Shown here: positions 894-41,485 of the stretch, one piece after another
Layout: each line of letters begins with the position of its first letter
Position numbering within the stretch: position 1 is the first letter of the stretch
Assembly: GCF_033242265.1 (NCBI RefSeq)
Contig: NZ_BTFW01000004.1
Coordinates: 1 to 63,729, forward strand
DNA from: Novosphingobium sp. IK01
GTDB lineage: Bacteria; Pseudomonadota; Alphaproteobacteria; Sphingomonadales; Sphingomonadaceae
Reading direction: 5' to 3'
Length of the DNA: 63,729 bases
Position numbers and translations under genes: made by a program
The notes under the pieces: model-generated
What the model was told of the DNA's origin: nothing
What the model saw: only the letters and a program-made list of their open reading frames with translations
Databases searched by the model: none

Positions 894-931
894 GGGGTTC
901 TAAGCCAGAACCGCCGAAATTTCCGTCATCC
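894..931 (+). repeat. Inner Tn3 left inverted repeat
   Basis: 38 bp starting GGGGTTCTAAGCCAGAACCG. The tnpA stop codon at 926-928 lies inside it. TTTCT precedes it. Confidence 0.93.
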
Positions 932-3900
932 CAGCTCCAGCCCCGCCACGAGCGCATCCAGGTCGATCATCTTGCCGTCGCTCTGGAAGGTGTAATGCCC
1001 GTTCAGCAGGATGTGCCGCCAGGCCGCCGGCGATATCTGGGTCAGGAGAGCGTGCGCCTTGGCGTTGCCGCTCGCCTCGTACTTCATCAGCAGCCGCGAG
1101 AGGATGGCCGAGTTGTAGAAGATGACCGCGTTGGCGATCAGCCTGGCGCACTGGTTGCTGATCTCAATTTCGATGTCGGTGCGCCCGGTCAATTCCTTCT
1201 TGCCGCCGACCTGGGCGATGGTTGAGCGTAGCTGGTGATAGGACTCGATGCGGTTCTGTGAGCGGTGAACGTTGCGCTCCAGTTGCGGATCGCGCAGGTA
1301 GCGCAGCGTGTAGATGCTGCGGATGAGCTTGTCGAACTCGAACACCGCGCGCCGCGTGGGGTTCGGCGCGGTGTAGGTGCATAGCTTGCGGATCAGCGTG
1401 CCCTGCGTCATCTCCTTCAGTCCGAGCGTGGCGACAATCTGGTCGAGGTTCGGCTTCTCGCTGACTATGAGATCGCGGTCGATTCTCCCGGCCGGCCGGA
1501 TCAGGCACTGATCGTACAGCGCCGGATCGTCGGCACTGTAGAGTTCCTTCAACTGATCGCCAAGGTCGGTGAAGCGCGGCTCGAAACGCAGGCCGAACCA
1601 GTGCAGGATAGCGAAGTTGGCCTTGTTGACGCTGTGCATGTCGCCGGTGATCGCGGTCGGCACGATGTCCGACGTGTTGCGATACCAGATGTCGAACACG
1701 TGATGGGCCTCGTAATCGTGCGCGCCGATCAGGTAGCCGTTGAGCGGCACGTGGTTGCACAGCAGCGTGTAGGCGACCACGCCCTTGCCGCGCCCAAAGT
1801 ATTTGCGCGAGTGGCGCGCTTTCACGGTCGGCCGCTCGACGCCGAATTTCTGACCATCGACGGCACCGTACAGTGCATCGAGGTCGAACGAGTAGTACGG
1901 GAAGATCGGCAGCGCGGCGATGGCGTTGCTGATGCAGTCGTTGGCCGCGTGCAGCGTTGCGTGGCGCAGGTACTGTTGGTAGGCGCTCTCCAGCACGTGG
2001 TACGGGATGTCGCTGGTGCGTGCCATGACCTGGTTGCCGTGGTTCATCGCCTGCGCGATGATGACCGCCATCAGGCTGTCGGCGTCGGCGACCTTCTTCG
2101 CATAGCGCGGCTGCAAAGGCGTCAGCGCCGACAGGAACTGGCACTGGCCGTTGACGAAGCGGAACACGTCGGCCACGTCGCAGAACGGCAGTTGCTCGTA
2201 GAACGCCTTCTCGCGCGCCTTCTGGTTCTCGCCCTTGGGCTTGCGCCATGTCAGCTTCTGCGTGTCCTTGTCGTATTCTAGGTGCGTCAGCTTGCCCTGC
2301 TTCAGCTCGCGGTTGAAGGCCAGCCACTGAGCGCGCAGCTCGGTCGCGAGCGCATCGAGCTGGGCATCGAGTGGCTGCCGCAGGAACGGGATGTCGATCT
2401 GCGCCAGCACGGCGGCCTTCTCATCCAGCGAAACCAGCTCGTCGGAAAAATGCCGGTGCTGCAAGCTGTCGTCGAGGTAGAGTTCACCCGACTGGAAGCG
2501 CTTCCTGACCTGGCGGTACAGCCAGAACTCGTAGCGGTCGGCATGCAGGTCCGTCGGCTTGCCATCGGCATCGAAGGTCAGCAGGTACGGTCGCAAGCGT
2601 TTCGGCAGCGTGGCCGCTGGACATTCGGCGAGCGGCCGTTGCGATAGGCGCTGCTGTTTGGCGAACACGTCCTTGGCCCAGGCCAGCGCCACGAGCCACG
2701 GGCTGCCCGGATCAGTGCCAGCGAGGTCGAGCGCGACATACAGCGGCCGAAGATGGCGGCGGATGCGCTCAGCCAGGCCGTCCACCGCCTGCCAGTGCAA
2801 AGCCAGCTTGCTCACCGGCTTCACGCTCATGCGCTGCGCGGTGGTTTGCAGCGTATCGCGGGGCATGATTTTGTAGGCGCGCTGGCGCACATCGCCGAAC
2901 GGCGTGGGATCGGGCACGCTGTCGTCGATGTAAAGCGACAGCAGGCGGCCGACCTGCGGTGTGTCTTGCTGACGGCGCACCTGCTCGGCGACAAAGGATT
3001 GCTTTGCGCCCGCACTGCTTTCGTCCTCCAACTGCTTCATGTGGTAGGCCATCGCATCGACCAGGTTGTCGGAAAGCTGCCGGTAGCGCACCCAGGCATA
3101 GCAAAGCAGGTAGAGGTAGGTCTGATCGGCCTTCAGGTTGCGTAGATCGTGGACGGTGTAGAAGTTCGCCAGGCTGGCGTAGTACAGCAGATTCTGCTGC
3201 GAGACGCCGAGCTTGGGCAGCAGCGCCTTGGCGATCCGGTGCAGCGGCTCCAGCGTGGCGCGCTTTTCGCGTTCGCGGGCCATCTGACGCCAGCCAAAGT
3301 CCTTGGCGTCCTGCTTGAGCGCCGCCAATTGCGACAGGGTGTCGTCACGCACTAGAAGCCGACCCAGCGCGGCCTTGGCCGATTCGTCCAACACTTCCGA
3401 CAGCAGGCCAGCCAGCCGCCGACGCTCGGCGGACAGGGCTTCGCTCACCAGCTCTTGCAGGGTGGTATAGCCGGGCCGGATGATCTTGTGCTCGTTTAGC
3501 CAGACGATCAGCTCGGCGGCGATGAACCCCGGCATCACGTCGCGCCGCACGGTCTGCGCGGCCTGCTGCGCGAGCTGCGCCAGGAACTCGGCCGCCCACG
3601 GCCGGTAGCCGAACAGATCGGCAATCCACTCGCGCTGGGTGTAGTGCTCGTGCTTGGAGATTGGCTTGTGCTCGAAGGACTCGCCGTGGAAGTAGCGGCT
3701 CAGCACGAAGGCGCAATCGTGCTCGACCTCACTCCAGTCGAAGCGGAAGAAGGCATGCTTGGCCTTGAAGTAACCGATCTGCAAGATGCAATAGACCTGG
3801 GCATGGAGACCAGGCCGGCTGCTGGCGAGCGCCAGTTCGGTTTCAGTCAACGCCAAGTATTCCAGCCGCTGGGCGTCGTCGAAGTCCGGCAGGCCGTACA

Positions 3901-3955
3901 GGGCTTCCTGCTCGGCGTCCGACAGGACGGTCAATCGTTCGCTCTTGGTCGTCAT
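926..3955 (-). CDS. tnpA: Tn3-family transposase TnpA (inner transposon)
   Basis: A 1,009-residue transposase that joins donor and target replicons by replicative transposition. The start is the ATG at 3955 (MTTKSERLTVLSDAEQEALYG), chosen because it overlaps the tnpR stop as ATGA and gives the family's usual length; the frame stays open further upstream without family similarity. The N-terminal DUF4158 region is followed by the catalytic DDE region near TAITGDMHSVNKANF and the C-terminal RSQNRIESYHQLRSTIAQVGG block typical of the family. The gene ends inside the left inverted repeat. It appears complete, so the inner transposon is probably still mobile. It differs clearly in sequence from the outer transposase. 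Confidence 0.95.
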   Translation of the reverse strand: MTTKSERLTVLSDAEQEALYGLPDFDDAQRLEYLALTETELALASSRPGLHAQVYCILQIGYFKAKHAFFRFDWSEVEHDCAFVLSRYFHGESFEHKPISKHEHYTQREWIADLFGYRPWAAEFLAQLAQQAAQTVRRDVMPGFIAAELIVWLNEHKIIRPGYTTLQELVSEALSAERRRLAGLLSEVLDESAKAALGRLLVRDDTLSQLAALKQDAKDFGWRQMAREREKRATLEPLHRIAKALLPKLGVSQQNLLYYASLANFYTVHDLRNLKADQTYLYLLCYAWVRYRQLSDNLVDAMAYHMKQLEDESSAGAKQSFVAEQVRRQQDTPQVGRLLSLYIDDSVPDPTPFGDVRQRAYKIMPRDTLQTTAQRMSVKPVSKLALHWQAVDGLAERIRRHLRPLYVALDLAGTDPGSPWLVALAWAKDVFAKQQRLSQRPLAECPAATLPKRLRPYLLTFDADGKPTDLHADRYEFWLYRQVRKRFQSGELYLDDSLQHRHFSDELVSLDEKAAVLAQIDIPFLRQPLDAQLDALATELRAQWLAFNRELKQGKLTHLEYDKDTQKLTWRKPKGENQKAREKAFYEQLPFCDVADVFRFVNGQCQFLSALTPLQPRYAKKVADADSLMAVIIAQAMNHGNQVMARTSDIPYHVLESAYQQYLRHATLHAANDCISNAIAALPIFPYYSFDLDALYGAVDGQKFGVERPTVKARHSRKYFGRGKGVVAYTLLCNHVPLNGYLIGAHDYEAHHVFDIWYRNTSDIVPTAITGDMHSVNKANFAILHWFGLRFEPRFTDLGDQLKELYSADDPALYDQCLIRPAGRIDRDLIVSEKPNLDQIVATLGLKEMTQGTLIRKLCTYTAPNPTRRAVFEFDKLIRSIYTLRYLRDPQLERNVHRSQNRIESYHQLRSTIAQVGGKKELTGRTDIEIEISNQCARLIANAVIFYNSAILSRLLMKYEASGNAKAHALLTQISPAAWRHILLNGHYTFQSDGKMIDLDALVAGLELG

Positions 3956-4545
3956 CGCGATGACGCTCCACGAGAGCCCGTCCAACCAACCCGTGCCAGG
4001 GTCTCGATCAGCGTGGTTCGCTTGACGCCGAAGTTGCGGCACACCGCCGCCTTGGACATGCCGCCATCGAGCGCAGCGACGATGGCCTCCAGCTTCTCGC
4101 CGGTGATCGCCTGCGGCCGGCCGCCGATCCGGCCGCGTTTGCGGGCGGCAGCCAGACCGGCGACGACACGTTCCTGGATCAAGGCGCGTTCGTACTGCGC
4201 GAGCGCGCCGAACACCTGGAACAGAAACTCGCCCGAGGGCGTCGTGGTATCCAGGTTCTCCGTCAGCGAGCGGAACGCCACCTGCTTTTTCTTGAGCGAG
4301 GTCACGATGGCGAGCAAGTGCGACAACGAACGGCCGAGCCGGTCGAGCTTCCACACGACCAACACGTCGCCAGGGCGAACGAATTCGAGCGCCCGCGCCA
4401 GGCCCGCGCGGTCGTCCTTCGCGCCGGAAGCATGATCCTCGAACAGATGCCGCGCATCGACGCCGACGGCGAGCAGCGCATCGCGCTGCAAGTTCGTGCT
4501 CTGGCGGTCGGAGTCCGACGACACGCGCATGTAACCTACCAACAT
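3952..4545 (-). CDS. tnpR: Serine site-specific recombinase TnpR (resolvase)
   Basis: A 197-residue serine resolvase of the invertase/resolvase family, expected to resolve cointegrates at the adjacent res site. The N-terminal catalytic motif is GYMRVSSDSD, with the nucleophilic Ser in RVSS. The conserved VWKLDRLGRS and SLTENLDT blocks follow, then a C-terminal DNA-binding tail (KAAVCRNFGVKRTTLIETLAR). The ATG at 4545 was preferred over an upstream in-frame ATG at 4608 because MLVGYMRV is where family members begin. The stop overlaps the tnpA start by four bases (ATGA), so the two are translationally coupled. Confidence 0.93.
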   Translation of the reverse strand: MLVGYMRVSSDSDRQSTNLQRDALLAVGVDARHLFEDHASGAKDDRAGLARALEFVRPGDVLVVWKLDRLGRSLSHLLAIVTSLKKKQVAFRSLTENLDTTTPSGEFLFQVFGALAQYERALIQERVVAGLAAARKRGRIGGRPQAITGEKLEAIVAALDGGMSKAAVCRNFGVKRTTLIETLARVGWTGSRGASSR

Positions 4546-7006: not shown

Positions 7007-8777
7007 CAACACCTTCGAATTTCGCGGCGCCGGTGCGGTGCAGGGACTCCTGTCGGCGCTTACCATCATCGCGGAGCTATACCGGACCGGCAAACGGCGC
7101 TTGCCTGATCGCGTGCCGCTGCGCTTTGTGCCCTCCGCATGGCGGCCGTTCGTCCTGCGGGACGGCATCGTCGATCGCGCCGCCTATGAACTATGCGCCT
7201 TGGCCCAGCTACGGGAGCGGTTGCGAGCGGGAGACATATGGGTCTCGGGAAGCCGCCAGTTCCGCGATTTCGATAGCTACCTCATCCCGTCGGCCACCTT
7301 CGACGCGCTTCGCGAGAAGGGGCCGTTGCCGCTCGCCATCGAAACGGACTTCGATCGTCATATCGAGGAAAGGCGCGCCAGGCTCGACACGGCGATCGAA
7401 CAGGTGACGGTCCTCGCCCGACAGGGCGAGCTGCCCCAGGTCAGGCTTAACGAAAGCGGCCTTATCATCTCGCCGCTGAAGGCGGCAACGCCACCCGCCA
7501 CCGAGATTGCCCGTCGCGCTGCCTACGACCGACTGCCGCGCGTGAAGATCACCGATCTCCTGCTTGAGGTCGATGCCTGGACCGGGTTCAGCGAATGCTT
7601 CATCCATCGGCGTTCGGGCCGGGAGGCCGACGACCGCAATGCGCTGCTCACCGTCATCCTTGCCGATGGCATCAATCTCGGCCTCACGCGCATGGCGGAA
7701 ACCTGCCGGGGCGCAAGCCTGCGTCAGCTCGCCCATCTCCACGACTGGCACATCAGCGAGGCCGCCTATGGCGAAGCGCTGGGAAGGCTGATCGACGCCC
7801 ATCGTGCCATGCCGCTCGCCGCGCTGTGGGGAGACGGCACCACCTCGTCGAGCGACGGACAGCAATTTCATGCCGGTGGTCGCGGGGCCGCGATCGGCGA
7901 CATCAACGCGCGCAGCGGCAACGAACCGGGCGTTGCCTTCTACACCCATGTCTCGGATCGATATGGCCCCTTCGCGACCCGGGTAATCGCGGCGACCGCC
8001 GGCGAAGCTCCCTATGTGCTGGATGGCTTGCTATATCAGCAGACCGGCCTGACAATCGAGGAGCACTACACCGATACAGGCGGGGCATCGGACCATGTGT
8101 TCGGCCTCATGCCCTTCTTCGGCTACCGTTTCGCGCCACGCCTGCGCGACATCAAGGAACGTCGTTTGCACCTGCTTCCCGGCCAGGAAGCAGGCCCCTT
8201 GCTCGCCGGCATGACGGGCGAACCGATCGCATTGGGTCATGTCGCAGCGCATTGGGACGAACTGCTGCGGTTCGCCACATCGATCCGCACCGGCACCGGC
8301 ACCGCTTCAGCGATGCTACGCCGCCTGTCCGCCTATCCGCGACAGAATGGACTAGCCCTCGCGTTGCGCGAGCTTGGCCGTCTCGAACGCTCGATCTTCA
8401 TGCTCGACTGGTTGCGCGACATCGACCTGCGCCGGCGCACCCAGGCGGGCCTCAATAAGGGCGAAGCCCGCAACGCGCTCGCCCGCGCGCTCTTCTTCAA
8501 CCAGCTCGGCGAGCTGCGTGATCGGCGGTTCGAGAACCAGACCTATCGCGCATCCGGCCTCAACCTGCTCGTCGCCGCCATCATCTTGTGGAACACCCGC
8601 TATCTTGAAGTGGCGCTGGCGGACATCGGCACGCCCGACGAAATCGCGCGCCACGTCGCGCCGTTGGGCTGGGAGCATATCTCGCTGACCGGCGACTATA
8701 GCTGGAATGTAGAAGACCGGCCCGATCCGGATGCCTTGCGGCCGCTGCGCGCCGTCCGATCCCTGCTCGCCGCGTGA
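7007..8777 (+). pseudogene. tnpA: Outer Tn3-family transposase, C-terminal catalytic segment
   Basis: This is the DDE catalytic half of the interrupted Tn3 transposase. It includes the region LAALWGDGTTSSSDGQQF, whose first Asp fits the first catalytic residue, and YTHVSDRYGPFATRVI, which fits the second, followed by the late Glu region and the stop at 8775-8777. An internal start at 7038 could allow translation, but without the first 395 or so residues an active transposase is unlikely. The reading frame joins that ending at 893 once the TTTCT duplication is removed. The outer transposon may therefore be immobile unless helped in trans. Confidence 0.9.
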
Positions 8778-8834
8778 CGTTCGCTATCCGTTCGCCCTTA
8801 CCGTGCAGATACGTCACTTTCGTGTAGTCACCCC
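8778..8834 (-). repeat. Outer Tn3 right terminal inverted repeat (57 bp)
   Basis: Read on the minus strand from 8834 this repeats the left end at 62670-62726 with 4 mismatches. It begins directly after the tnpA stop codon. Confidence 0.9.
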
Positions 8835-9536
8835 GAATATGAGAAGGTCGCGTTTGAGGCCGCGCAGGATCGGGCCGATTACCCGCGCTATCTGCTGCGC
8901 CTGTGCGAACTGGAGCGCATCGACCGTGAACGCCGGATGGTCGAGCGTCGCATCCGCATGGCCAGGTTCCCGCATACCAAGAGTTTTGACACCTTCGACT
9001 TTGCAGCCCAGCCATCACTGAACAAGGCGCTGGTGCTGGAACTGGCGCGCGGAGAATGGATCGAGCGGCAGCGCAATGTCATTGCGCTGGGCCCCAGCGG
9101 TACCGGCAAGACCCACACCGCCCTCGCGCTGGGACTGGCCGCTTGCCAGAAGGGGCACAGCGTGGCCTTCACCACCGCTGCGGCGCTGGTCCATGACTTG
9201 ATGGAGGCGCGCGACGAACGGCGACTGCGCAGCCTGCAAAAGCATCTGGCCTCGGTGAAACTGCTGATCCTCGACGAGCTGGGCTATGTGCCCTTCACCG
9301 CAGTGGGCGGTGAATTGCTGTTCGAGGTGCTCAGCCAGCGGTATGAACGCGGCAGCACGCTGATCACCAGCAATCTGCCCTTCGATGAATGGACATCGGT
9401 GTTCGGGTCCGAGCGCTTGACTGGCGCCCTGCTCGACCGCCTGACCCACCACGTGCACATCCTCGAGATGAATGGTGACAGCTTCCGCCTCACCAGCAGC
9501 CGCAAGCGCCAGAAGGACAAGGGGGAGGCAAAATGA
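8835..9536 (+). pseudogene. istB: IS21-family helper ATPase IstB, 5' truncated
   Basis: The frame is open from the transposon end at 8835 (EYEKVAFEAAQDRADYPRYLL) to the stop at 9536, giving about 233 residues. It keeps the Walker A motif ALGPSGTGKTHTA, Walker B LLILDELGYVPF and the sensor region TLITSNLPF of IstB, the AAA+ regulator that stimulates the IstA transposase. The N-terminal first few tens of residues and the whole istA are missing, removed where the outer Tn3 transposon ends. An internal start at 8937 exists. A small istA piece at 54360-54511 is elsewhere on the plasmid and may or may not be from the same element. Confidence 0.88.
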
Positions 9537-10762: not shown

Positions 10763-11020
10763 ATGCCGATAGAGCCTTTCGTTCTTATTGTTGCCGATCA
10801 CGACAGGCGCGTCTTTTCGGTCGAGGGGCCGATGGTGGACGACAACCCGTGGTCAAAGCCGGTCGTCGATGCTCAAGATGGCGGCAAGCGCCACATCAAC
10901 TGCTTCGTTCCCGGTGGCCCCTCGCGCACCGACGTAGAGACCGCCGCGCGCGAATATCAGCGTGAATATGGGTATGCGCGTGTTGAGGCGGGATCGATCG
11001 TCAGCCGCAAACCCTGCTAA
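10763..11020 (+). CDS. Small protein of unknown function
   Basis: An 85-residue soluble protein (MPIEPFVLIVADHDRRVFSVEGPMVDD). The start at 10763 was chosen for the GAGGG-type ribosome site and because the upstream extension lies in the palindrome region. No motif was recognised. It is acidic in the middle, with a basic end. Its stop is 22 bases from the stop of the reverse transcriptase, which is transcribed towards it, so the two operons converge here. Confidence 0.6.
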   Translation: MPIEPFVLIVADHDRRVFSVEGPMVDDNPWSKPVVDAQDGGKRHINCFVPGGPSRTDVETAAREYQREYGYARVEAGSIVSRKPC

Positions 11021-11041
11021 GGTCACAGCAACCGGCATCAA

Positions 11042-11914
11042 TCAACCTGGTTCGTTCATGCTATCTATCTGGCGCATTTGACCCGCCAAGCCGCTCAGAC
11101 GGCCCTTCAGGCGTTGATCGCCGCTGCCGGGCTGCTGGAGGGCCAACCTCGTCTTACGGTGCTTCAGGCGCTGGCGATTGGGCACGACGACCTTCCCGTC
11201 GCGAACGACGACACCCGTGATCTCCGCTGGCCGATCCACATAGTGCTTGAGCTTGTGATAGCGCAGCCCTGTCCGGTGGATCATGCGCCGCACATGCCAA
11301 ACATCTGCTACGGGCACTTTCGCGCCGGAAATTGTCACGTCATCGACATAGACCGTCAGCGTGTAGCCCTTGGCCGTGCAGAACGCCGCGATCTCGGCCC
11401 ACATATCGTGATAGCTATAATATGCCAGGATCGGGCTGAGGGGACTGCCCGTCGGCAAATGACCCTCGAACGTGCAAAGATCACCAAGAATGCCGGCAAC
11501 GTCGGCGCGGCATCCCATGATGCTTTGGAAGAACGCGATCACCCGCACACGGGGCGTGTTGGGGAAGAACTTCTTGATGTCGAGGCAGTGAACGACGCGG
11601 TTGCCGCGATGGCGCGCGGCATTGCTGACGTAGCATCGTCCCTTCACCGGGCAGAACAGAAAAGATGGCGGCTCGATCCGCGCCAGCATCTTGGCGATAC
11701 GGCCCTGTACACGCTTGAGCGGCGCGACCGGATCTTCAACCGGACGTTTTCCGCCACTCTTCTTCTCAATCTCAAACTGCCGATACCGATCCGGCCCGGT
11801 CGCCATTGCCCGCAGCTCAGCTTCTGCAAGGCCGAGCACGTCAGCGAGGCGGCGCGGACTCGTGAGCTTATAGAGCTGCGACTGATTGAGCGGGATGACC
11901 GTCTTATTCGGCAT
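11042..11914 (-). CDS. Retron-type reverse transcriptase
   Basis: 290 residues with the full set of bacterial reverse transcriptase blocks: LDIKKFF (111-117, first Asp), LPTGSPLSP (153-161) and the catalytic YVDD (189-192). It also has two features diagnostic of retrons: NAARH (98-102), matching the NAxxH motif of region X, and ITGVVV (232-237), matching the VTG motif of region Y that reads the msr RNA. Retrons make an RNA-linked DNA (msDNA) and act in phage defence with an associated effector. The start overlaps the end of the XRE gene by 11 bases. It is short, as retron enzymes are. The noncoding RNA would be expected upstream at about 12420-12680. Confidence 0.9.
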   Translation of the reverse strand: MPNKTVIPLNQSQLYKLTSPRRLADVLGLAEAELRAMATGPDRYRQFEIEKKSGGKRPVEDPVAPLKRVQGRIAKMLARIEPPSFLFCPVKGRCYVSNAARHRGNRVVHCLDIKKFFPNTPRVRVIAFFQSIMGCRADVAGILGDLCTFEGHLPTGSPLSPILAYYSYHDMWAEIAAFCTAKGYTLTVYVDDVTISGAKVPVADVWHVRRMIHRTGLRYHKLKHYVDRPAEITGVVVRDGKVVVPNRQRLKHRKTRLALQQPGSGDQRLKGRLSGLAGQMRQIDSMNEPG

Positions 11915-12209
11915 GGGTCCGACCGGACCGAGCCTCGAGGAATTGAAGCAGGCTCACCACCTTGCCAGCGACAAAGGTCCGTGCCTGGTCGAGCGTGCTC
12001 TTCTGATCGAGGTTCTCCGAAAAGAACATGATCGACGAGACAGGCATGTCGAAGACAGTGGCATAGCGCTGGATGATGTCCAGCGTGGGCGTCTTCAGGC
12101 CGCGTTCGATTTCCGACAGATACGACGTCGAAACCTCCAACCGCTCAGCCGCCTGCTTCTGCTTGAGGTCGTGATAGACTCGGATCAAGCGAAGAGCTTC
12201 ACCCAACAT
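11904..12209 (-). CDS. XRE-family helix-turn-helix protein (retron-associated)
   Basis: 101 residues beginning MLGEALRLIRVYHDLKQKQAAERLEVSTSYLSEIERGLKTPTLDII, a clear XRE/Cro-type helix-turn-helix across residues 4-60. It ends in a short tail rich in Gln/Leu. AGGAG sits 8 bases before the ATG at 12209, which decides the start; the frame extends upstream without similarity. It overlaps the reverse transcriptase start, so co-translation is likely. Surveys of retrons describe HTH proteins as associated effectors or regulators, and that role is inferred here. The binding target could be the inverted repeat at 12660-12676. Confidence 0.87.
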   Translation of the reverse strand: MLGEALRLIRVYHDLKQKQAAERLEVSTSYLSEIERGLKTPTLDIIQRYATVFDMPVSSIMFFSENLDQKSTLDQARTFVAGKVVSLLQFLEARSGRTHAE

Positions 12210-12244
12210 TGCATCTCCTTTCAGGAGGCTATTCAGGGTGCGAA

Positions 12245-12418
12245 TTACTGGCGGAAAACCTTGATGATGGAGAGGGCGATGTGGAGCAGTTGCACCACCA
12301 CTCGCCCCAAGGCCACCACCGTCTTCAAAGTGGACGGACGGATCAGGCGCTTTGCCCAATGCTGCCGTCGCACCGTCTTCGTTCGCGCACGCTTCTCGTT
12401 CAGACCAAGCTTTCGCAT
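12245..12418 (-). CDS. 57-residue basic protein upstream of the retron operon
   Basis: A short frame (MRKLGLNEKRARTKTVRRQH...) with an excellent GAGGAGG ribosome site 6 bases before the ATG at 12418. It ends 35 bases before the XRE start. The N-terminal half is strongly basic and the C-terminal half (TLKTVVALGRVVVQLLHIALSII) hydrophobic, so it may insert into a membrane. No family was recognised. Its place between the hairpin-rich leader and the XRE/RT genes makes it a candidate third retron component, possibly a membrane-acting effector; this is inference. Confidence 0.6.
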   Translation of the reverse strand: MRKLGLNEKRARTKTVRRQHWAKRLIRPSTLKTVVALGRVVVQLLHIALSIIKVFRQ

Positions 12419-12680
12419 GGCGTCCTCCTCTGCCAACCCCCACACCATGCAGGGGCGCCGCCGAGGCTTTGGAGGGTGGGGTAGAAGCACGTTAACCCTG
12501 AACACCAAGGCGGACACCGGGCCGTCCGGTGGCCGCCCGCGGCGCCGCTCGCTCGCACGCACGGAGCCACAAAGCAGAGAAGGTTTCTTCTCCAGGAGGG
12601 GTTTCCCCCTCGGTTGATGGCGACACATCCCCTTTCAAACTGAACGAGAGTGTGATGCCCTAGCGCACTTCGCTAGTCAA
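12419..12680 (-). ncRNA. Candidate retron msr-msd RNA region
   Basis: The leader of the retron-like operon holds several perfect or near-perfect stems: CTAGCG/CGCTAG (12660-12676), GAGGGG/CCCCTC (12596-12611), GAGAAG/CTTCTC (12577-12592) and a 12-bp stem with one mismatch, GGCGGACACCGG/CCGGTGGCCGCC (12509-12537). Two short msr-like hairpins followed by a long msd-like hairpin is the usual retron order when read leftward. Exact ends, the branching G and the a1/a2 pairing were not determined. Confidence 0.5.
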
Positions 12681-12987
12681 CGAATAAAATCCGCTCACAG
12701 CGAATTTATTGCTCTGCCTAAGCGGCGGCCGACGACGTTCCGCCCTTCCCTGCCATGCGACTGGACGACTCGATGCCAATCTACCGGCGAGCAGGTCATT
12801 ATGTCTGAAGCTTGCGGGCTGCGTGCCAGTGCCGCAGATAAGCCAAGGGCCGCCCTTTTGAGGCGGCCCCGACCATTTAGTTCCCTCGCGGGAAACGGAC
12901 ACTCCCCAGGGGGAGGCCGCGCGTGCTCCCCATGTAGAAACCCATCCCTTACGATTCAACTAAAATCTGAAAGGACATCAACCGGCC
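12681..12987. other. Intergenic region, no gene seen
   Basis: Between the retron-like leader and the PemK-like gene. It contains a hairpin at 12847-12869. The leftward promoter of the retron operon should lie at about 12670-12720 (TTGACT is present on the minus strand next to the CTAGCG repeat), but no convincing -10 was found. Confidence 0.5.
12847..12869 (-). terminator. Possible terminator after the PemK-like gene
   Basis: Perfect 8-bp stem GGGCCGCC/GGCGGCCC with a 7-base loop. The following minus-strand sequence is only weakly T-rich, so this could be a simple hairpin. Confidence 0.4.
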
Positions 12988-13437
12988 TTACGCGCCGGAA
13001 CCGGTGGGCGTAGGCGGCACCCCCTGAGGCGGCGACGGGGGCGTCGAGGGCACCGGCAGCCAGGCCAACACAAGGCGCAGCATGTCGTCGAACTCCCCGA
13101 CCGGCATTCGCATGATGCCGCCTTTGTCAGGGATTAGCCGGCTCACCGCCACGGTCGTCAGCTTGTCGCAGATCGCGAACGCCGCCCGACCGTCAATCGT
13201 GGTCTGCAGCGGAAAGGCCCACTTGTTTCCTGGCTGCGCTGCCGTCGAGCAGGGCACCACCGTGACCGCGCCATGCAGCGTGTTCTTGAACGACACGATG
13301 ATGACGGGGCGCCGCTTCCAGAACTCCGGGAGCTGGGCGTCTTGCGGAAAGTCACACCAGTAGAGCTGACGGATGCTTGGCGCGGCCGTAACCCTCGGTT
13401 CCACTTTCGGGGGTGGATCTTGGATATGCGCGTTCAC
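12988..13437 (-). CDS. PemK/MazF-family toxin-like endoribonuclease
   Basis: 149 residues. The PemK/MazF core spans about residues 40-130: RRPVIIVSFKNTLHGAVTVVPCSTAAQP, then AFAICDKLTTVAVSRLIPDKG and FDDMLRLVLAWL, in the order seen in MazF-type mRNA interferases. An N-terminal 35-residue extension and a Pro-rich tail are unusual. The ATG overlaps the stop of the upstream winged-helix gene (ATGA, 13434-13437). No MazE/PemI-like antitoxin is visible, so the upstream DNA-binding protein may fill that role; alternatively this is a solitary family member. Confidence 0.82.
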   Translation of the reverse strand: MNAHIQDPPPKVEPRVTAAPSIRQLYWCDFPQDAQLPEFWKRRPVIIVSFKNTLHGAVTVVPCSTAAQPGNKWAFPLQTTIDGRAAFAICDKLTTVAVSRLIPDKGGIMRMPVGEFDDMLRLVLAWLPVPSTPPSPPQGVPPTPTGSGA

Positions 13438-13919
13438 TCGTCGTCATCCTGTACCAGACGCAGCTTAGGCGCCCCGGCCCGGTTCTGACGGCGCTTCGCC
13501 AACTCGGCCTTGTCCTTGATCTCAGCCAGCTTCTCGACCGCGAACGGCGCTACTGCCTTAATCAGCCCATCGAGATGGTAGATGTTGGTGCGGCTGCCGG
13601 TTTCGGTCCGCCGCTCCTCGCGACGGATATACCCTGCCCCCTCCAGCGCAGCGATGTGCTTCTGGATCGTGCGCGGATGAACGTCCATCGCCTTCGCCAT
13701 CGTGGTCTTGGACGGAAAGGGCTTGCCCTCCGCCGTCCACCATTTGCTCGCCAGATACACGATGATGTTGAGATCGAGCGGCGACAGCATGAGCTGGCGC
13801 TGATTTTCGATGATGACGCTCGGCAATGCAGTCCAGCCCGCATCCATCAGCGGCTTGGTCCACTTCTTCTCATTCGTTCGCAGATCGGCGCTGCTGTCCT
13901 TTTGCTTTTTCGCAGCCAT
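13434..13919 (-). CDS. Winged helix-turn-helix protein (HTH_36-like)
   Basis: 161 residues starting MAAKKQKDSSADLR, with AAGGA before the ATG at 13919. A winged helix spans about residues 47-110 (LSPLDLNIIVYLASKWW, PSKTTMAKAMDVHPRTIQKHIAALEGAGYIRREER), similar to HTH domains of plasmid replication and regulator proteins. The C-terminal part is charged (EKLAEIKDKAELAKRRQNRAG). Coupled by overlap to the PemK-like toxin gene, it may be its repressor/antitoxin or a plasmid copy regulator. The palindrome at 14200-14219 in the upstream region could be its operator. Confidence 0.75.
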   Translation of the reverse strand: MAAKKQKDSSADLRTNEKKWTKPLMDAGWTALPSVIIENQRQLMLSPLDLNIIVYLASKWWTAEGKPFPSKTTMAKAMDVHPRTIQKHIAALEGAGYIRREERRTETGSRTNIYHLDGLIKAVAPFAVEKLAEIKDKAELAKRRQNRAGAPKLRLVQDDDE

Positions 13920-14519
13920 GTGATTATCCTTTCTGGCTGCAAATATGCCCCTCGCGCGAAGGGGATTCAAGTTTGAGGGGGCGGCACTAGGGGCGCCCCA
14001 CAGGGCGCGCAGGCCGCCCCCTCCCCGGCCCTTTGGACCGCCCACCCGGGAGCCGCACGGGGCCTACAAAGCATAGGACATCCCCATATAGGAACCGCTC
14101 AGGGTACACTCCTGGCGTATCAACCGAGGATAAACCCAGCGGGAGCCCCCACGGCCTCCCCCTCTCCCCGTGTTTTCCTATTCGCGCTGCCGCAAGGCAG
14201 GTGTGCCACGTGGCACACCCCCCATGACACGCCTGGAGCGTGGCACAGCTTGTTGGGCACGCTGCCCTCCCCCGGAGGCCAGACCGGTGCCGGGGAACAC
14301 CAAGGGCGGCTGCCCTTTCGTTCCCGAACGACAATCAGGCCCCCCGTGTAATCCGCCAAACGCGGCACCCGACGCCCTGCGGAGCGTCGGCCGCGCTAGG
14401 CGGCTCGCCCGCGCCAGAGGCCAGATTCTCGCCCTCCCTCCCCATCCCGTTCCTCGCCGGAAAGGCAGAGCCGGTTGCTGTTGCGACCGGCTTTCAGCCT
14501 CAAAGGAAAGGAAGACATC
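13920..14519. other. 600-bp intergenic region with a palindromic site
   Basis: Divergent upstream region of the winged-helix gene (leftward) and ardC (rightward). Apart from the palindrome at 14200-14219 and GC-rich short inverted repeats, no gene was recognised. Promoters for both directions must lie here. Confidence 0.55.
14200..14219. promoter_or_regulatory. Perfect 20-bp palindrome, copy 2 (GGTGTGCCACGTGGCACACC)
   Basis: Identical to 10695-10714, including two extra flanking bases. It is placed between divergent promoters, as expected of a shared operator. Confidence 0.7.
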
Positions 14520-15443
14520 ATGGGACGGATCACCGACAATCGAGCCGACATCTATCAGGAAATCACCGATCAGATGATCGCGATGATCGAGGCCGGCACC
14601 CGGCCGTGGTCGAAATCGTGGAATGGCAGCACCGCACCGAATATCCCGCTCCGCTCGACCGGCGTTCCCTATCGGGGCATCAACGTCCTGACCCTTTGGG
14701 TTGCCGCCATGACCAAGGGCTATGCCTCTCCGCATTGGCTGACCTTCAAGCAAGCGCTTGCGCTTGGTGGATGCGTCCGCAAGGGCGAGAAGGGTTCGAC
14801 CGTCGTCTATGCCAACAAGATCGAGGTTGACGCCGACAAGGGTGGAGAGAGCAGCGAGGACGGCAAGCGTCAGGTGGCGTTTCTTAAGCGCTATACCGTT
14901 TTCAATGCCGAGCAGATCGATGGCATCGAGGCGAAATATCCAACCCCCGCGCCGATCATCACCGCAACCAATCCCGATGAGCGGGATGCCGAGCTGGACG
15001 CGCTTTTCGCTCGCATCTCCGTCACCCTTAAACACTTCGGATCGCAGCCCTATTATCAGCCGAGCGGCGATCATGTGGTCATGCCCGAGTTTGCCGATTT
15101 CCACACCAGCGATGACTATTATTCGACCCTAGCGCACGAACTTTGCCACGCGACGGGACATGTTGACCGACTTGCCCGTCCCTCTCTCATTTCCACGAAG
15201 CGCGAGGACTACGCCCGAGAGGAATTGGTTGCCGAGCTAGGGGCGGCGTTCGTCAGCGCGACCATCGGCATCAAGCTTCACGACCGTGAAGACCACGCCG
15301 CCTATCTGGCGAGTTGGCTACAGGCCCTGCGCAACGACAAGCGGTGCATCTTCACCGCCGCCCGCCTAGCCCAGGACGCGTCCGACTGGCTCTTGAGCCG
15401 CATGGCCGTTGAGACGGCCCCTGAACTGGACGAGCCGGCATGA
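14520..15443 (+). CDS. ardC: Antirestriction protein ArdC-like (ssDNA-binding plus zincin domain)
   Basis: 307 residues. The N-terminal ArdC domain (about 1-135; DIYQEITDQMIAMIEAGTRPWSKSW, GINVLTLW, KGEKGSTVVYANK) binds single-stranded DNA in characterised relatives. The C-terminal domain is a zinc metallopeptidase with HELCH at 206-210, His 214 and a downstream Glu region (AREELVAELGAAF). ArdC proteins protect incoming plasmid DNA from host restriction during transfer. AGGAAAGGAAG precedes the ATG at 14520. It is the only rightward gene in this segment and is followed by a strong hairpin at 15451-15482. Confidence 0.9.
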   Translation: MGRITDNRADIYQEITDQMIAMIEAGTRPWSKSWNGSTAPNIPLRSTGVPYRGINVLTLWVAAMTKGYASPHWLTFKQALALGGCVRKGEKGSTVVYANKIEVDADKGGESSEDGKRQVAFLKRYTVFNAEQIDGIEAKYPTPAPIITATNPDERDAELDALFARISVTLKHFGSQPYYQPSGDHVVMPEFADFHTSDDYYSTLAHELCHATGHVDRLARPSLISTKREDYAREELVAELGAAFVSATIGIKLHDREDHAAYLASWLQALRNDKRCIFTAARLAQDASDWLLSRMAVETAPELDEPA

Positions 15444-25217: not shown

Positions 25218-28200
25218 TTAGGCCAAGTTGCTCACGAAGGTCTGACCGTGGTCATCCCCTTCATGCTTCTCATTGTCGTGATCGAGCTTCTTGATCATTT
25301 TCTGCCCGAACCGGGCATAAAGCGTCGGCAGCACGAACAGCGTCAGCAGCGTCGCCGAGACCAGGCCGCCGATGACGACGGTCGCCAAGGGCTTCTGTAC
25401 CTCCGCACCCGCGCCCTCGCCAAGCGCCATCGGCACGAAGCCGAGGCTTGCGACGAGCGCGGTCATGACGACGGGCCGCAGGCGCTGCATTGCGCCGACA
25501 TGGGCCGCCTCTTCGCGCGATAACCCCGACCGGATCAAATCCTGGATCGAGCTGACCATCACGAGGCCGTTGAGGACCGCGATACCCGACAAGGCGATGA
25601 AGCCCACCGCTGCCGAGATTGAAAAGTCCATGCCTCGCAAGAAGAGCAGCAGGACGCCGCCCACCAGCGCGAAGGGCACGCCGGTGAAGACGATCGCGGC
25701 ATCGCGGACCGATTCCAATGCGCCATAGAGCAGGAACAGGATCAGGATGAAGCAGGCCGGAATGACTAGCTTAAGCCGTTCGCTCGCCGATTGCAGGTTT
25801 TCAAATTGGCCGCCCCATTCGAGATAGGTGCCGGCAGGCAGCCGAACCTGGCTGGCGATCGTTGCCTGCGCATCCGCAACCACCGATCCAACGTCGCGGC
25901 CACGCACGTTGGCTTGCACCACCACACGCCGCTTCCCGTTCTCGCGGCTGATCTGGTTGGGGCCATCGATGACCTTGATGTCGGCGACGCTGGAAAGCGG
26001 CACATAGCCACCCCCCGCCAACGGCACCTGCACCTGTTCGAGAAGGCCGATGTCCGCCCGTTGCGCTTCAGAGAGCCGTATCACGACCGGAAAGCGCCGA
26101 TCGCCCTCGAAGATCTGGCCCGAGGTGCGCCCGCCGATTGTCGCGGTGACAATGTCCTGCACATCTTGGGCAGTGACCCCCAAACGTGCCATTGCGTCGC
26201 GATTGACGCGAATGTCGAGCATGGGCAGGCCCGTCGTTTGCTCGACCTTCACGTCCGCTGCGCCCTGCGTCTTGCGCAGCACCGCAGCAACCTGCTCGGC
26301 CGTCCGGTTCATTTGTGTGAAGTCATCGCCGAACACCTTCACCGCGATGTCGCCGCGAACGCCGGCGATCAGCTCGTTGAAGCGCATCTGGATGGGCTGG
26401 GTGATCTCATAGGCATTGCCCGGGAACTTCGCGAGATTACCCTCTATCCGACTTACCAGCTCCTCCTTGGGAAGGTCGGGGTTCGGCCAGTCCTTCCGCG
26501 GCTTCAGGATGACGAACATGTCGGTCGCGTTCGGCGGCATCGGGTCGGCCGCCAGCTCGGCGGTGCCCGTCTTGGAATAGACGAACGCCACCTCCGGCTG
26601 CTTCGACATCATCTGCTCGATCGGCACCTGCATCGCCTGACTCTGCTGGACCGACGTTGCCGGGATGCGGAGCGACTGGATGAGCAGATTGCCTTCATCG
26701 AGCTGCGGCAGGAACACCGAGCCGAGCGTGGTGAAGGCAAGCGCCGCCACCACAAGGCTCGCGACACCCGCCCCGATCGTCAGCGTCGGGCGCTTCATGG
26801 CCCGGTCGAGACCGGGTTCGTAGCGCTTCTTCAGCCACGTGATGATGCGGCCGTCCTTCTCCTCGACCTTCTTCGACAGCCAGATCGCAATCATCGCCGG
26901 CACGAAGGTGAGAGAGAGGATGAAGGCGAAGGCGAGCGCGATGATGACGGTCAGCGCCATCGGTCCGAACGTTTTACCCTCCACGCCGGTCAGCGTGAGC
27001 AGCGGTACGTAGACGAGGATGATGATTGCCTGCCCGTAAACCGAGGGGCGGATCATCTCGCGAGCGGCGGCTGCCACGGTCGCAAGCCGTTCCTTGACGG
27101 TCAGCAAGCGACCTTCATGATGCTGTTGTTCGGCAAGCCGCCTCAGCGCGTTTTCAACGATGATGACGGCGCCGTCGACGATCAGACCGAAGTCCAAAGC
27201 CCCAAGGCTCATCAGATTGGCCGAGACCCCAGCGCGCAGCATACCAAAGCCTGTCAGCATCATGGTGATCGGGATGACCAACGCCGCGATCAGGGCCGCA
27301 CGGAAGTTGCCGAGCAGCAGGAAGAGCACGACGATGACCAGCACCGCGCCTTCGGACAGGTTTTTCGCGACCGTCTTGATCGTCGAATTGACCAGCTCGG
27401 TGCGGTTCAGCACCGGCTGAATTACGACGTCAGGAGGCAGCGAAGCGTTGATCGTCTTCAGTTTCTCAGCGACCGCGGTCGACACGATGCGGCTGTTCTC
27501 GCCGATCCGCATGATCGCCGTGCCGACGACGACTTCGGTACCGTTCTCCGATGCCGAACCCATGCGGATCGCCTGACCCGTCTTCACAGTCGCAACTTGT
27601 TCGACCGTGATCGGCACGCCGTTACGTGTCGCGATCACGGTCCTGGCCAACTCGCTGGCATTGCGAACGAGCGCATCCGAGCGAACAGCCAGACCTTCGC
27701 CATTGCGATTGACGAAGCCACCGCCGACGCTGGTGTTATTGCGCTCCAGCGCATTTCCCAGGTCCGTCAGCGTGATGCCGAGCGAGGCCAGCTTCTGCAC
27801 GTCGGGCACGACGAGGAACTGCTTGGCGTAACCGCCAATCGAGTCGACACCGGCGAGGCCCGGTGTGGTCTTCAGAAGCGGCGTCACGATCCAGTCCTGC
27901 GCGGTGCGCAGGTAGGTCGCCTTGTCCTCTTCGGTCGTCAGTCGCTCGCCCTCTGGCGTGATGTAGCTGCCATCGGGCTGTTGGCCCGGTTCACCGGGCT
28001 TGTGCTTGTCGTCCTCGCGATGATCGAGACGAACGGTGTACATGTACACCTCGCCCAGGCCTGTCGCGATCGGACCCATTTCAGGGTTCACGCCGTCGGG
28101 CAGATTCTCTTGCACGCCCCGCAGACGCTCGCCCACCTGCTGGCGGGCGAAATAGATGTCCGTCGCGTCCGAAAAGACCGCCGTGATCTGCGCGAAGCCG

Positions 28201-28463
28201 TTGCGGCTCAACGAGCGCGTATATTCCAGGCCGGGGGTGCCGGCGAGCGCGGTTTCGATTGGAAACGACACCTGCTTCTCGACCAGCTCGGGCGAGAGGG
28301 CAGGCGCGCGGACGTTGATCTGGACCTGATTGTTGGTGATGTCCGGCACCGCGTCGATCGGTAGCCGGTAGAGGGAAAAGGCGCCGATGGCGGCGACGAT
28401 GACGGTGAGGAGCAGGACTAGCCAGCGCTTCTCGACCGCCCAGGTTACGATACGGGCGATCAT
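25218..28463 (-). CDS. czcA: CzcA-type heavy-metal RND efflux pump
   Basis: 1,081 residues, the inner-membrane proton-driven pump of a tripartite metal exporter. Starts MIARIVTWAVEKRWLVLLL. The HME signature in TM4 is LDFGLIVDGAVIIVENALRR, close to the DFG-x-x-VDG pattern of the Zn/Co/Cd group rather than the Cu/Ag group. Periplasmic porter blocks (RAPALSPELVEKQVSFPIE, MPPNATDMFVILKPRKDWP) and the C-terminal TM bundle are complete. A His/Asp-rich loop (DHREDDKHKPGEPGQ) after the first porter domain may help metal capture. It lies three bases downstream of czcB. Confidence 0.96.
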   Translation of the reverse strand: MIARIVTWAVEKRWLVLLLTVIVAAIGAFSLYRLPIDAVPDITNNQVQINVRAPALSPELVEKQVSFPIETALAGTPGLEYTRSLSRNGFAQITAVFSDATDIYFARQQVGERLRGVQENLPDGVNPEMGPIATGLGEVYMYTVRLDHREDDKHKPGEPGQQPDGSYITPEGERLTTEEDKATYLRTAQDWIVTPLLKTTPGLAGVDSIGGYAKQFLVVPDVQKLASLGITLTDLGNALERNNTSVGGGFVNRNGEGLAVRSDALVRNASELARTVIATRNGVPITVEQVATVKTGQAIRMGSASENGTEVVVGTAIMRIGENSRIVSTAVAEKLKTINASLPPDVVIQPVLNRTELVNSTIKTVAKNLSEGAVLVIVVLFLLLGNFRAALIAALVIPITMMLTGFGMLRAGVSANLMSLGALDFGLIVDGAVIIVENALRRLAEQQHHEGRLLTVKERLATVAAAAREMIRPSVYGQAIIILVYVPLLTLTGVEGKTFGPMALTVIIALAFAFILSLTFVPAMIAIWLSKKVEEKDGRIITWLKKRYEPGLDRAMKRPTLTIGAGVASLVVAALAFTTLGSVFLPQLDEGNLLIQSLRIPATSVQQSQAMQVPIEQMMSKQPEVAFVYSKTGTAELAADPMPPNATDMFVILKPRKDWPNPDLPKEELVSRIEGNLAKFPGNAYEITQPIQMRFNELIAGVRGDIAVKVFGDDFTQMNRTAEQVAAVLRKTQGAADVKVEQTTGLPMLDIRVNRDAMARLGVTAQDVQDIVTATIGGRTSGQIFEGDRRFPVVIRLSEAQRADIGLLEQVQVPLAGGGYVPLSSVADIKVIDGPNQISRENGKRRVVVQANVRGRDVGSVVADAQATIASQVRLPAGTYLEWGGQFENLQSASERLKLVIPACFILILFLLYGALESVRDAAIVFTGVPFALVGGVLLLFLRGMDFSISAAVGFIALSGIAVLNGLVMVSSIQDLIRSGLSREEAAHVGAMQRLRPVVMTALVASLGFVPMALGEGAGAEVQKPLATVVIGGLVSATLLTLFVLPTLYARFGQKMIKKLDHDNEKHEGDDHGQTFVSNLA

Positions 28464-28466
28464 GGC

Positions 28467-29648
28467 TTAATCCTCGTGGCTCGCTTCGCCCTTGCCGATC
28501 TCGGCCTTGAGCGTGAAACTTCCGGTGGTGGCGATCTGTTCGTTGCCGGTCAGGCCCGACCGGACGATCACCGTGTCGCCCGACGCATCGCCGAGCTGGA
28601 CCGGGGTCGCCTTGAAGCCGGTGGGCGTGCGCACGAACACGACCGACTTGCCCTCGAAACTCTGGACCGCCGTCGTCGGCACGCGGACCGCCCCGCTCCC
28701 GCCGCTGCCCGTGAGCTGCACGGCTGCCGTCACAGGCTCGCCGACCCGCCATTCGCCACCGCGATTGTCGAGGGTGGCGAGCGCAGGCACGAGCCGCGTC
28801 TGCGGATCAAGCGCCGGCGACACGAAGGTCACGCGGGCGGTCGCCTGACGGCCTGCCGCCTTCACCAGCACCGTATTGCCGGGACGCACCCGGCCCGCAT
28901 CCTCGGGCTTGAGATTAAGCGCGATCGACACCTGGCTCAGGTTGGCGATGCGATAGAGTTCGGCATCCGCCGCGACCGTTTGTCCCAGCGTCACGGGGCG
29001 CGCAATGATCTGGCCCGAGATCGGCGCGGCAATGCCGAGCCGGTTGAGCCCGCCGCCGCCGACACCCGCCGCCGAAACCATGCTCTGCGCCTGCGTCAGG
29101 GCGATCCGCGCCTCCGTCGCCGCTGTGCGGGCGGCGATCAGATCCTGTTCAGGGGAGACTCTCTGCGCGAACAGCCGCTGTTCGCGCGCGAGGTTCGAAT
29201 TAGCGAGCTGAAGCCGCGCCCGCGCCGCCTCGACCTCGCCCTTGATCTGCGCCGCCTCGCGGCTTTCGATGACCGCAATGGTCTGGCCGCGTCCGACCGA
29301 TTGGCCGAGGTTACGGGTGAGCGCGACCACGCGTCCCGCAATTGCGGCCGAGACGACCTGCGTTCCCTGTGGGTCGCCCTCGATGATCGCGGGCAGCTCG
29401 ATCGTCCCGGCCCCGCCGATGATCGGCCGTCCGACCTGGACGCCCGCTGTGGCGATCTGGTCGGCACCCAATGTGACGACGCCTTCACCGGCATGACCGC
29501 CTTCAGCACCGCCCTTTTCCGTGCCCGCTGCCGTCTCATTGGCAGCTGCGCCTTCGGCAGTTGCCTCGTTTCCGCCATCCTTGCCGCCGCAGGCAGCCAA
29601 GAGCAGGGCGAGCGACGCCGCGCCCGCGAGATAAAAGCTCTTCATCAC
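28467..29648 (-). CDS. czcB: CzcB-type periplasmic adaptor lipoprotein
   Basis: 393 residues of the membrane fusion protein family. Lipoprotein signal MMKSFYLAGAASLALLLAAC, then a low-complexity Gly/Ala/Glu linker, a barrel-lipoyl segment (GRVVALTRNLGQSVGRGQTIAVIES), a coiled-coil hairpin (AAQIKGEVEAARARLQLANSNLAREQRLFAQRVSPEQD) and the returning lipoyl half (ISGQIIARPVTLGQTVAADAELYRI). It bridges CzcA and CzcC. Its start overlaps the czcC stop (29645-29648). Few His residues compared with canonical CzcB. Confidence 0.94.
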   Translation of the reverse strand: MMKSFYLAGAASLALLLAACGGKDGGNEATAEGAAANETAAGTEKGGAEGGHAGEGVVTLGADQIATAGVQVGRPIIGGAGTIELPAIIEGDPQGTQVVSAAIAGRVVALTRNLGQSVGRGQTIAVIESREAAQIKGEVEAARARLQLANSNLAREQRLFAQRVSPEQDLIAARTAATEARIALTQAQSMVSAAGVGGGGLNRLGIAAPISGQIIARPVTLGQTVAADAELYRIANLSQVSIALNLKPEDAGRVRPGNTVLVKAAGRQATARVTFVSPALDPQTRLVPALATLDNRGGEWRVGEPVTAAVQLTGSGGSGAVRVPTTAVQSFEGKSVVFVRTPTGFKATPVQLGDASGDTVIVRSGLTGNEQIATTGSFTLKAEIGKGEASHED

Positions 29649-41050: not shown

Positions 41051-41485
41051 ATGTGTGAGACAAAACGGCTCCGTGAACCGGACTACGACTGGCTCACCGG
41101 CCCCGGCGAAGCAGCCTACATCGCCGCGTTGCACAAGGAGGTCGTGGAATCGAAGGAACGCGATTTCTGCACCGGAACGCCGCTACAATGGCGCCTGCTC
41201 GCCCCCCGTCGCCGGACTACGGGGCGGCGCGGCTACATATCCGAAGGTCGCGGCCCCAGCATCGATCATGTTTATGGCATCTACAGCCTGCAGTTCTGGA
41301 TATACGGGGCAAACGTCAATGCCGCCAAGGGGCCCTTGACGGACCACTAGTTCCTGCGCCTGTGCAAGGCGGTGACCGATCATCATGAAGCATTTCAGCC
41401 GCGCAACTGGTGGCGGTGCTTTACATGGTGGCGCTTCACCCAACCAATGAAGGCTCGCTGCCAGTCGGCAGGCGTCCGCTCCTGA
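41051..41485 (+). pseudogene. Unknown reading frame interrupted by an in-frame TAG at 41348
   Basis: From 41051 (a GTG read as MCETKRLREPDYDWLTGPGEAAYIAALHKEVVESKERDF) the frame runs 99 residues to TAG at 41348. It then continues 44 more codons with a W-rich, protein-like sequence (FLRLCKAVTDHHEAFQPRNWWRCFTWWRFTQPMKARC) to TGA at 41485. The second part overlaps the 3' end of repA on the other strand. It could be a nonsense-mutated gene or only a 99-residue gene. No family recognised. Confidence 0.4.

Follow-up and report, generated by a model that had tools for sequence, protein, structure and literature searches.

A type VI retron on a plasmid-like contig of Novosphingobium sp. IK01 and a possible antisense role for its msDNA

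Which kind of retron is encoded on the 63,729-nt stretch of Novosphingobium sp. IK01 DNA analysed here (the window), and what might its msDNA be for? A preliminary description of the sequence had depicted a probable new retron, i.e., a hairpin leader followed by a small ORF, an XRE protein gene and a reverse transcriptase (RT) gene. The data reported below assign the element to a known retron type; what looks new is the architecture of its leader, through which msDNA might act as an antisense on the translation of a small peptide.

Retron type and plasmid context

The three motifs on which the retron assignment had been founded (NAARH, YVDD and ITGVVV) are all present in the 290-aa RT ORF, representing the retron RT motifs NAxxH, YxDD and [VI]TG, and residues N98, A99, H102, Y189, D191, D192, T233 and G234 are invariant in an eight-sequence alignment (the window and seven relatives). 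PADLOC assigned the RT to RT_VI (1.1e-88, the next model reaching 2e-41) and the XRE protein to HTH_VI (3.7e-35). Moreover, a profile of the eight RT sequences matched 12 PDB sequences at E<=1e-5, 10 of them named retron and two 'RNA-directed DNA polymerase'; retron identity was thus borne out. The preliminary description had also proposed placing the RT in a phylogeny: in a tree of 77 RTs (leaving out, among others, near-copies, L009, L027 and L087-L092), the 45 RTs accompanied by an XRE gene are separated from the others by a single branch (support 100/99). The type-defining work for type VI retrons is reportedly that of Mestre et al. 2020. According to the available part of a later text (PMC8541194, citing Mestre et al. 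2020), a type VI retron consists of an RT, a DNA-binding protein and a small auxiliary protein, and the window has this architecture: an RT of this group, an XRE-type HTH partner and a small auxiliary ORF 5' of the HTH gene. On the basis of PADLOC, the tree and this partial description, the element is a member of a known retron type; the view that it was new and not a described retron does not stand, a new type being ruled out by the PADLOC placement.

The elements of the operon follow one another on the minus strand in the order palindrome and promoter, structured leader, small ORF, XRE gene and RT (Table 1). The overlap between the XRE gene and the start of the RT, already noticed before, amounts to 11 nt, and the starts of the three ORFs are annotated identically in a record sharing 99.7% identity. 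A downstream effector in the window was considered and rejected: in the near-identical annotated record, the genes following the RT lie on the other strand. In other loci, the ORFs downstream of the RT differ (by eye), and a TIR-domain gene is annotated 3' of the RT in three (L029:3474-4433, L034:3381-4346 and L092:2681-3646, L092 being a near-copy of L034). In L027, the RT reading frame is split into two pieces.

Table 1. Features of the retron and its surroundings (window positions)
Feature	Position	Strand	Basis or remark
Whole element: leader RNA, 57-aa ORF, XRE regulator, retron RT	11042-12705	-	
Retron RT ORF (RT_VI), 290 aa	11042-11914	-	PADLOC, motifs, PDB matches, tree
XRE-type HTH protein (HTH_VI), 101 aa	11904-12209	-	PADLOC HTH_VI; PF01381
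Small ORF, 57 aa, proposed effector	12245-12418	-	position, composition, helix prediction
SD-masking hairpin	12424-12480	-	locus-specific complementarity, 32-35 loci; 5' bulge about 12456-12465
Tall GC hairpin, msd-like	12509-12538	-	z 2.7 (window); loop region 12518-12528
msr-like module	12576-12611	-	covariation, 16 loci; 2-nt spacer between H2 and H1
Hairpin H2	12576-12593	-	
Hairpin H1	12596-12611	-	
AGCGAA half-site	12669-12674		similar half-sites in relatives by eye
Promoter and palindrome	12675-12705	-	TTGACT -35 box at 12675-12680
Palindrome ATTCGCTGTGAGCGGAT, probable XRE operator	12689-12705	-	8 nt before the -35 box
PemK/MazF-type gene	12988-13437	-	retron neighbour
HTH_36/DnaD-like gene, then PemK/MazF-type gene	12988-13952	-	directly upstream of the retron
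ArdC-type gene	14475-15443		retron neighbour
Second long Tn3-like ORF	926-4354	-	by eye
Tn3-type transposase and IstB genes	7038-9536	+	near the retron
RND efflux pump (ACR_tran)	25218-30922	-	adaptor-like and outer-membrane-like ORFs by eye
MobA/VirD2-type relaxase	33959-35362		
RepA	41395-42759		

The 63.7-kb contig is contig 4 of a four-contig, 3.77-Mb assembly and, judged from its contents (RepA, a ParA-type ATPase and a MobA/VirD2-type relaxase), looks like a plasmid. The region 10800-13500 is 99.7% identical to a stretch of Sphingobium xenophagum plasmid p4, typed as mobilizable, and five more contigs carry the RT at 98-100% identity (four from Sphingomonas or Novosphingobium, one from a proteobacterial MAG); given these near-identical copies, the module has probably spread recently. 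The relaxase, RepA and the typing of the near-identical copy agree with the earlier claim of a mobilizable plasmid, and the ArdC-type and toxin-like (PemK/MazF-type) genes said to lie beside the retron are indeed present. The PemK/MazF-HTH_36 stretch is 75% identical on another Sphingobium plasmid, in a match from which the retron is absent. Transposition-related ORFs and an RND pump, perhaps for metal efflux, lie elsewhere in the window (Table 1).

Promoter palindrome and leader RNA

The probable operator, which lies just beyond the range 11042-12680 previously described, differs at one position from ATTCGCTNNNAGCGAAT. Palindromes like TTCGCTNNNAGCGAA, located 260-393 nt ahead of the small ORF, were counted in 27 of 36 loci when up to two mismatches were allowed and in 32 of 36 when up to three were; these are raw counts, with a motif derived from the same loci. 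A TTG-type -35 box lies within 16 nt of the palindrome in 27/36 loci. Over the whole window, the 17-nt pattern with up to two mismatches occurs twice against 0.31 expected, and two of 100 shuffles contained as many. The simplest reading is that the XRE protein, whose structure model has a mean pLDDT of 70, would be an autorepressor acting at the palindrome. An AGCGAA half-site just after the -35 box, similar to half-sites seen by eye in several relatives, is perhaps a second XRE contact.

Before the counts, loci that nearly duplicate the window or a further locus (L001-L008, L010, L036, L057, L070, L088 and L092) were dropped, as were L009 and L015 (leader poorly resolved) and L075 (start unclear). 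The preliminary description had guessed the position of the RNA and had seen two short hairpins followed by a taller stem; the fold of the window and covariation in relatives agree on both points. The window leader has a folding z of -2.5 (2/200 shuffles as good). With anchors set by eye, 31 of 36 loci allowed two adjacent hairpins separated by 2-3 nt to be placed; these lie 152-238 nt ahead of the small ORF. Of the 31 loci, 16 entered the covariation alignment. MAFFT misaligned the leader on mixed clades. RNAalifold found both hairpins unaided in the 16 aligned loci; 11 of the 14 base pairs changed on both sides, with a covariation score of 0.760 compared to 0.320 +- 0.034 for shuffled and at most 0.274 for slid alignments.

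For the window, which belongs to its own training set, model R1 gave a hit at 12556-12643 (E 6.7e-12). Run on 30 sources, the 16-locus RNA model found 8 of the 21 XRE-bearing loci outside the model and not close to the window, namely L064 (3.9e-6), L035 (5e-5), L058 (7e-5), L032 (1.5e-4, a cyanobacterium locus), L060 (6e-4), L053 (0.006), L069 (0.03) and L070 (0.11), and missed 13; one XRE-less source matched at 0.31. A further run, covering 25 sources, found 11/14 type VI loci at E<=0.011 and missed L052, L075 and L089; L064 was in both runs. Rfam gave zero matches for the window at gathering thresholds and for 11900-13000 at E<=1; PADLOC has msr-msd covariance models of its own (PMC9252829, in the part available).

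Downstream of H1-H2, a tall hairpin has z>2 in 22 of 28 loci, with a mean z of 3.4 over the 28. The leader is thus laid out like an msr-msd, with two covarying hairpins and a tall one, which would be the reverse-transcribed msd. The a1/a2 pairing for which the preliminary description had proposed a test was not confirmed: at the expected place, complementarity was not above permutation (28 loci), with short candidates in some loci. Two unplanned observations concern the 5' flank, which gave z -4.3 against -55..-10 and z 2.6 against -60..-25. According to the part of PMC6868368 available, the priming G of retrons usually lies within AGC; by eye, this triplet is absent from the window flank before H1 (12612-12634) and present in some relatives.

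The small ORF, its masked start and the loop-bulge repeat

A small ORF lies 5' of the XRE gene in the 43 loci listed, six of which are the window and its near-copies; its start was picked by Shine-Dalgarno (SD) and ATG, and the ORF is doubtful in L009 and L015. L064 has an in-frame stop within its small ORF (preceding the XRE gene at 1157), with XRE and RT still open. Among 33 representatives, the ORFs are 41-66 aa long with a mean net charge of +7.9. Over the C-terminal 26 residues, the hydrophobic moment is above the shuffle mean in 33/33 (mean z 2.1). The window peptide has a basic N-terminus and an amphipathic C-terminal helix; AlphaFold predicts two helices (C-terminal block pLDDT 83-94, model mean 78.7, pTM 0.37). 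Members of the group resemble one another little (identity to the window's sequence 10-48%, 19 aligned), with dN/dS of 0.37-0.57 in 10/12 pairs, indicating moderate constraint, and of 0.91 and 1.25 in the other two, both very close pairs. NCBIfam and PADLOC gave zero matches among 19 small ORFs, Pfam gave none for the window's (the sole member scanned), and PHROGs matched 2/19, each to a function-less family. The product looks like a membrane-active peptide and may be toxic.

The small ORF is preceded by 24 nt that pair with a stretch 40-95 nt upstream. The energy of each locus's own duplex averages -17.83, compared to -13.85 +- 0.46 with arms swapped between 35 loci (0/20000 permutations), and the helix has z -7.9 over 32 loci. 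When the same geometry was moved to the XRE start or to points 300 and 150 nt beyond it, z was -1.0, -1.6 and -1.5, none of them significant. Furthermore, SD pairing is 0.76 for the small ORF versus 0.57 for XRE, higher in 26/35 loci (P 0.0005), and the mean SD pairing probability in the window is 0.81-0.82. These sequence data support a hairpin that would mask the SD of the small ORF. A CAATYC loop is frequent, by eye, in the inner masking hairpin (e.g., L033, L034, L054 and L056).

Locus by locus, the loop of the tall hairpin is repeated, in the same sense, in the bulge of the masking hairpin. In the test of this repeat, the best hairpin in -165..-85 was taken with its loop plus 4 nt per side, and the score was the longest substring shared with the leader from -93 to -20. 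Since the idea arose from reading the first loci, further loci were added: 33 were tested first and 10 held out later. The 33 loci scored 6.24 on their own leader compared to 4.53 +- 0.17 (0/50000 permutations). For six held-out loci, 6/720 permutations were as high; for all 10, four of which had leaders read before testing, the values were 6.30 and 4.67 +- 0.34 (0/100000). A stricter held-out set of seven, with L064, L089 and L095 removed as relatives of used loci, gave P 0.0006. Over all 43 loci the score was 6.26 versus 4.54 +- 0.15 (z 11.4), with at least 6 nt shared in 31/43 versus 13% of swapped pairs, and fewer than 6 nt in 12/43; at least four rule-picked hairpins that look wrong (L031, L067, L068 and L090) were retained. 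Other window and flank settings gave z 10.6-13.2, and 27 loci hand-chosen as distant z 8.6-9.6.

The controls gave no such signal for the reverse complement (z -0.4), the small-ORF coding sequence (z -0.1), region 100-173 (z -0.1), the upstream region (z 0.1), the H1-H2 region (z -0.1) and the loops of H1 (z 0.2) and H2 (z 0.5). As for the stem arms, the 5' arm gave z 2.0 (P 0.03) and the 3' arm z 0.2. The repeat signal peaks at -65..-42 (z 11.6). A repeat of at least 6 nt is present in 27 of 39 loci examined, and in these the copy in the leader tends to be unpaired (0.69 vs. 0.37, with the higher value in 24/27); its position is more upstream in L012 and L087. The shared motif changes from locus to locus: GGGAAGGCCC in L027, GTGCGGC in L063, GGTGGA in L066, GCGAGAAT in L058, AGGCAAC in L032 and TTGAGCGA in L096; of L062, L063 and L066, which belong to one RT clade, each carries a motif of its own in both places. 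In the window, the exact stretch common to loop CCGGACGGCCCGG and bulge CTCGGCGGCG is 4 nt long, no better than with the leaders of other loci; accepting one G.T wobble extends it to a run of 6. In L061, a relative of the window, loop and bulge have GGACGGC in common. The window's own repeat being weak, the mechanism proposed below is a claim about the family, and the copy in the window may be drifting.

A separate RT group with an XRE-like gene (L076/L100, L077/L101, L079, L097, L098 and L099) carries a longer, acidic ORF of about 68-85 aa. The start of this ORF is possibly masked too, and the group might represent a second one of similar design. The loop-bulge repeat in this second group (six loci) was not significant with preset windows (206/720 permutations) and only suggestive with adjusted windows (14 and 7 of 720).

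Possible control of peptide translation by msDNA

In principle, we can depict the type VI retron as a double-locked toxin, a scenario to which we give barely less than an even chance. The leader RNA would fold as msr-msd and be copied by the RT into msDNA, and the effector would be the third gene product, the cationic amphipathic peptide. One lock would be XRE bound to the promoter palindrome; the other would be the SD-masking hairpin, which the comparison of loci supports, together with the msDNA loop as a putative antisense to its bulge, since reverse transcription of the tall hairpin would give msDNA with the complement of the loop, and hence antisense to the bulge beside the masked SD. With msDNA present, peptide translation would go down, via hairpin locking or RNase H direction; should a phage destroy, modify or sequester the msDNA, peptide synthesis would follow and the infected cell would stop growing. 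The opposite sign, with msDNA opening the hairpin, is a less likely possibility, and the hairpin by itself may be strong enough to silence the SD. The narrower proposal, that type VI msDNA is a natural antisense and that base pairing of its loop with the bulge lets a phage attack on the msDNA switch translation of the toxin, we hold more tentatively, with chances somewhat short of even. An engineered antisense placed in an msd silenced an mRNA (Mao 1995, as related in the available parts of PMC6868368 and PMC4569332); given this precedent and the expected complementarity of msDNA loop and bulge, we think that msDNA natively controls peptide translation, most likely keeping it off until a phage acts on the msDNA.

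The same repeat might be read in other ways. A same-sense repeat in a hairpin loop and a bulge is also a common placement of protein sites, and one operon protein (RT, XRE or the basic peptide) might bind the motif in both, repressing or timing its own translation with no need of msDNA-mRNA pairing. Exact identity is kept between the copies, and mismatches show no bias to wobble-tolerant changes (14 loci vs. 13), so that base pairing is not favoured over identity; the mostly unpaired leader copy and the very basic N-terminus of the peptide point the same way. The sequence data do not separate DNA pairing from a protein reading both copies. However, the motif varies widely (GUGCGGC, GGUGGA, GCGAGAAU, AGGCAAC, CGAAGAC), and a binding protein would need to evolve a new specificity with every such change; protein binding is the less likely account. 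Still less probable is template switching, in which the RT would jump between the same-sense repeats and yield longer or repeated cDNA, as reported for DRT2 (available part of PMC12039810): the 55-71 nt that separate the repeats in the 27 loci sharing at least 6 nt would suit it, but this spacing keeps no fixed reading frame, the repeats sit in a loop and mostly a bulge instead of at template ends, and the stopping point of retron RTs is normally fixed (PMC6868368, in the part available).

The XRE protein might instead be the true output, as a regulator of host or plasmid genes, with the small ORF only a leader peptide or an immunity factor. XRE is the one partner used to recognise the group, the small ORFs are poorly conserved, and two of the 12 pairs have the high dN/dS values given above. 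Nevertheless, a similarly designed small ORF stands at the same place in the 43 listed loci, it is under moderate constraint in most pairs, and a palindrome at the operon's own promoter points to autoregulation; this scenario too appears improbable. If the preferred reading, antisense msDNA on the masked peptide gene, is true, it would represent a natural use of reverse-transcribed antisense DNA and would answer what msDNA is for in the type VI group. A repeat co-varying between an msd loop and the leader of a toxin-like gene offers a concrete and cheap handle for testing, and the small cationic peptides form a group for which no model was found in PADLOC or NCBIfam (19 scanned) or in Pfam (the window's only). 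In the literature searched, with the RNA predictions of Mestre 2020 outside it, we found no description of the SD-masking hairpin or the loop-bulge repeat; nor, most subscription papers being beyond reach, did that literature yield anything on the type VI mechanism.

The locus resembles type VI retrons in its RT group, in the XRE partner overlapping the RT and in the small auxiliary ORF before XRE. Type I toxin-antitoxin systems combine a small membrane-type peptide, a masked SD and antisense control. The present locus would share with them the peptide design, the masked SD and, as proposed here, the antisense control; unlike in those systems, the antisense would be reverse-transcribed DNA from the same transcript. 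The RT belongs to the same family as the solved RTs of retrons Ec86, Ec67, Ec78, Ec83 and Kva2, in which msDNA controls an effector (PMC12948488, in the part available); in those retrons, the effector is a large protein held through contact with msDNA and RT, whereas control at the level of translation is proposed here. Finally, the msDNA of Mao 1995, as far as the available parts of PMC6868368 and PMC4569332 describe it, likewise carried an antisense in the msd acting on the translation start region of an mRNA; that construct was artificial and based on retron Ec107, whereas the match found here is natural, lies within one operon and targets the retron's own small gene.
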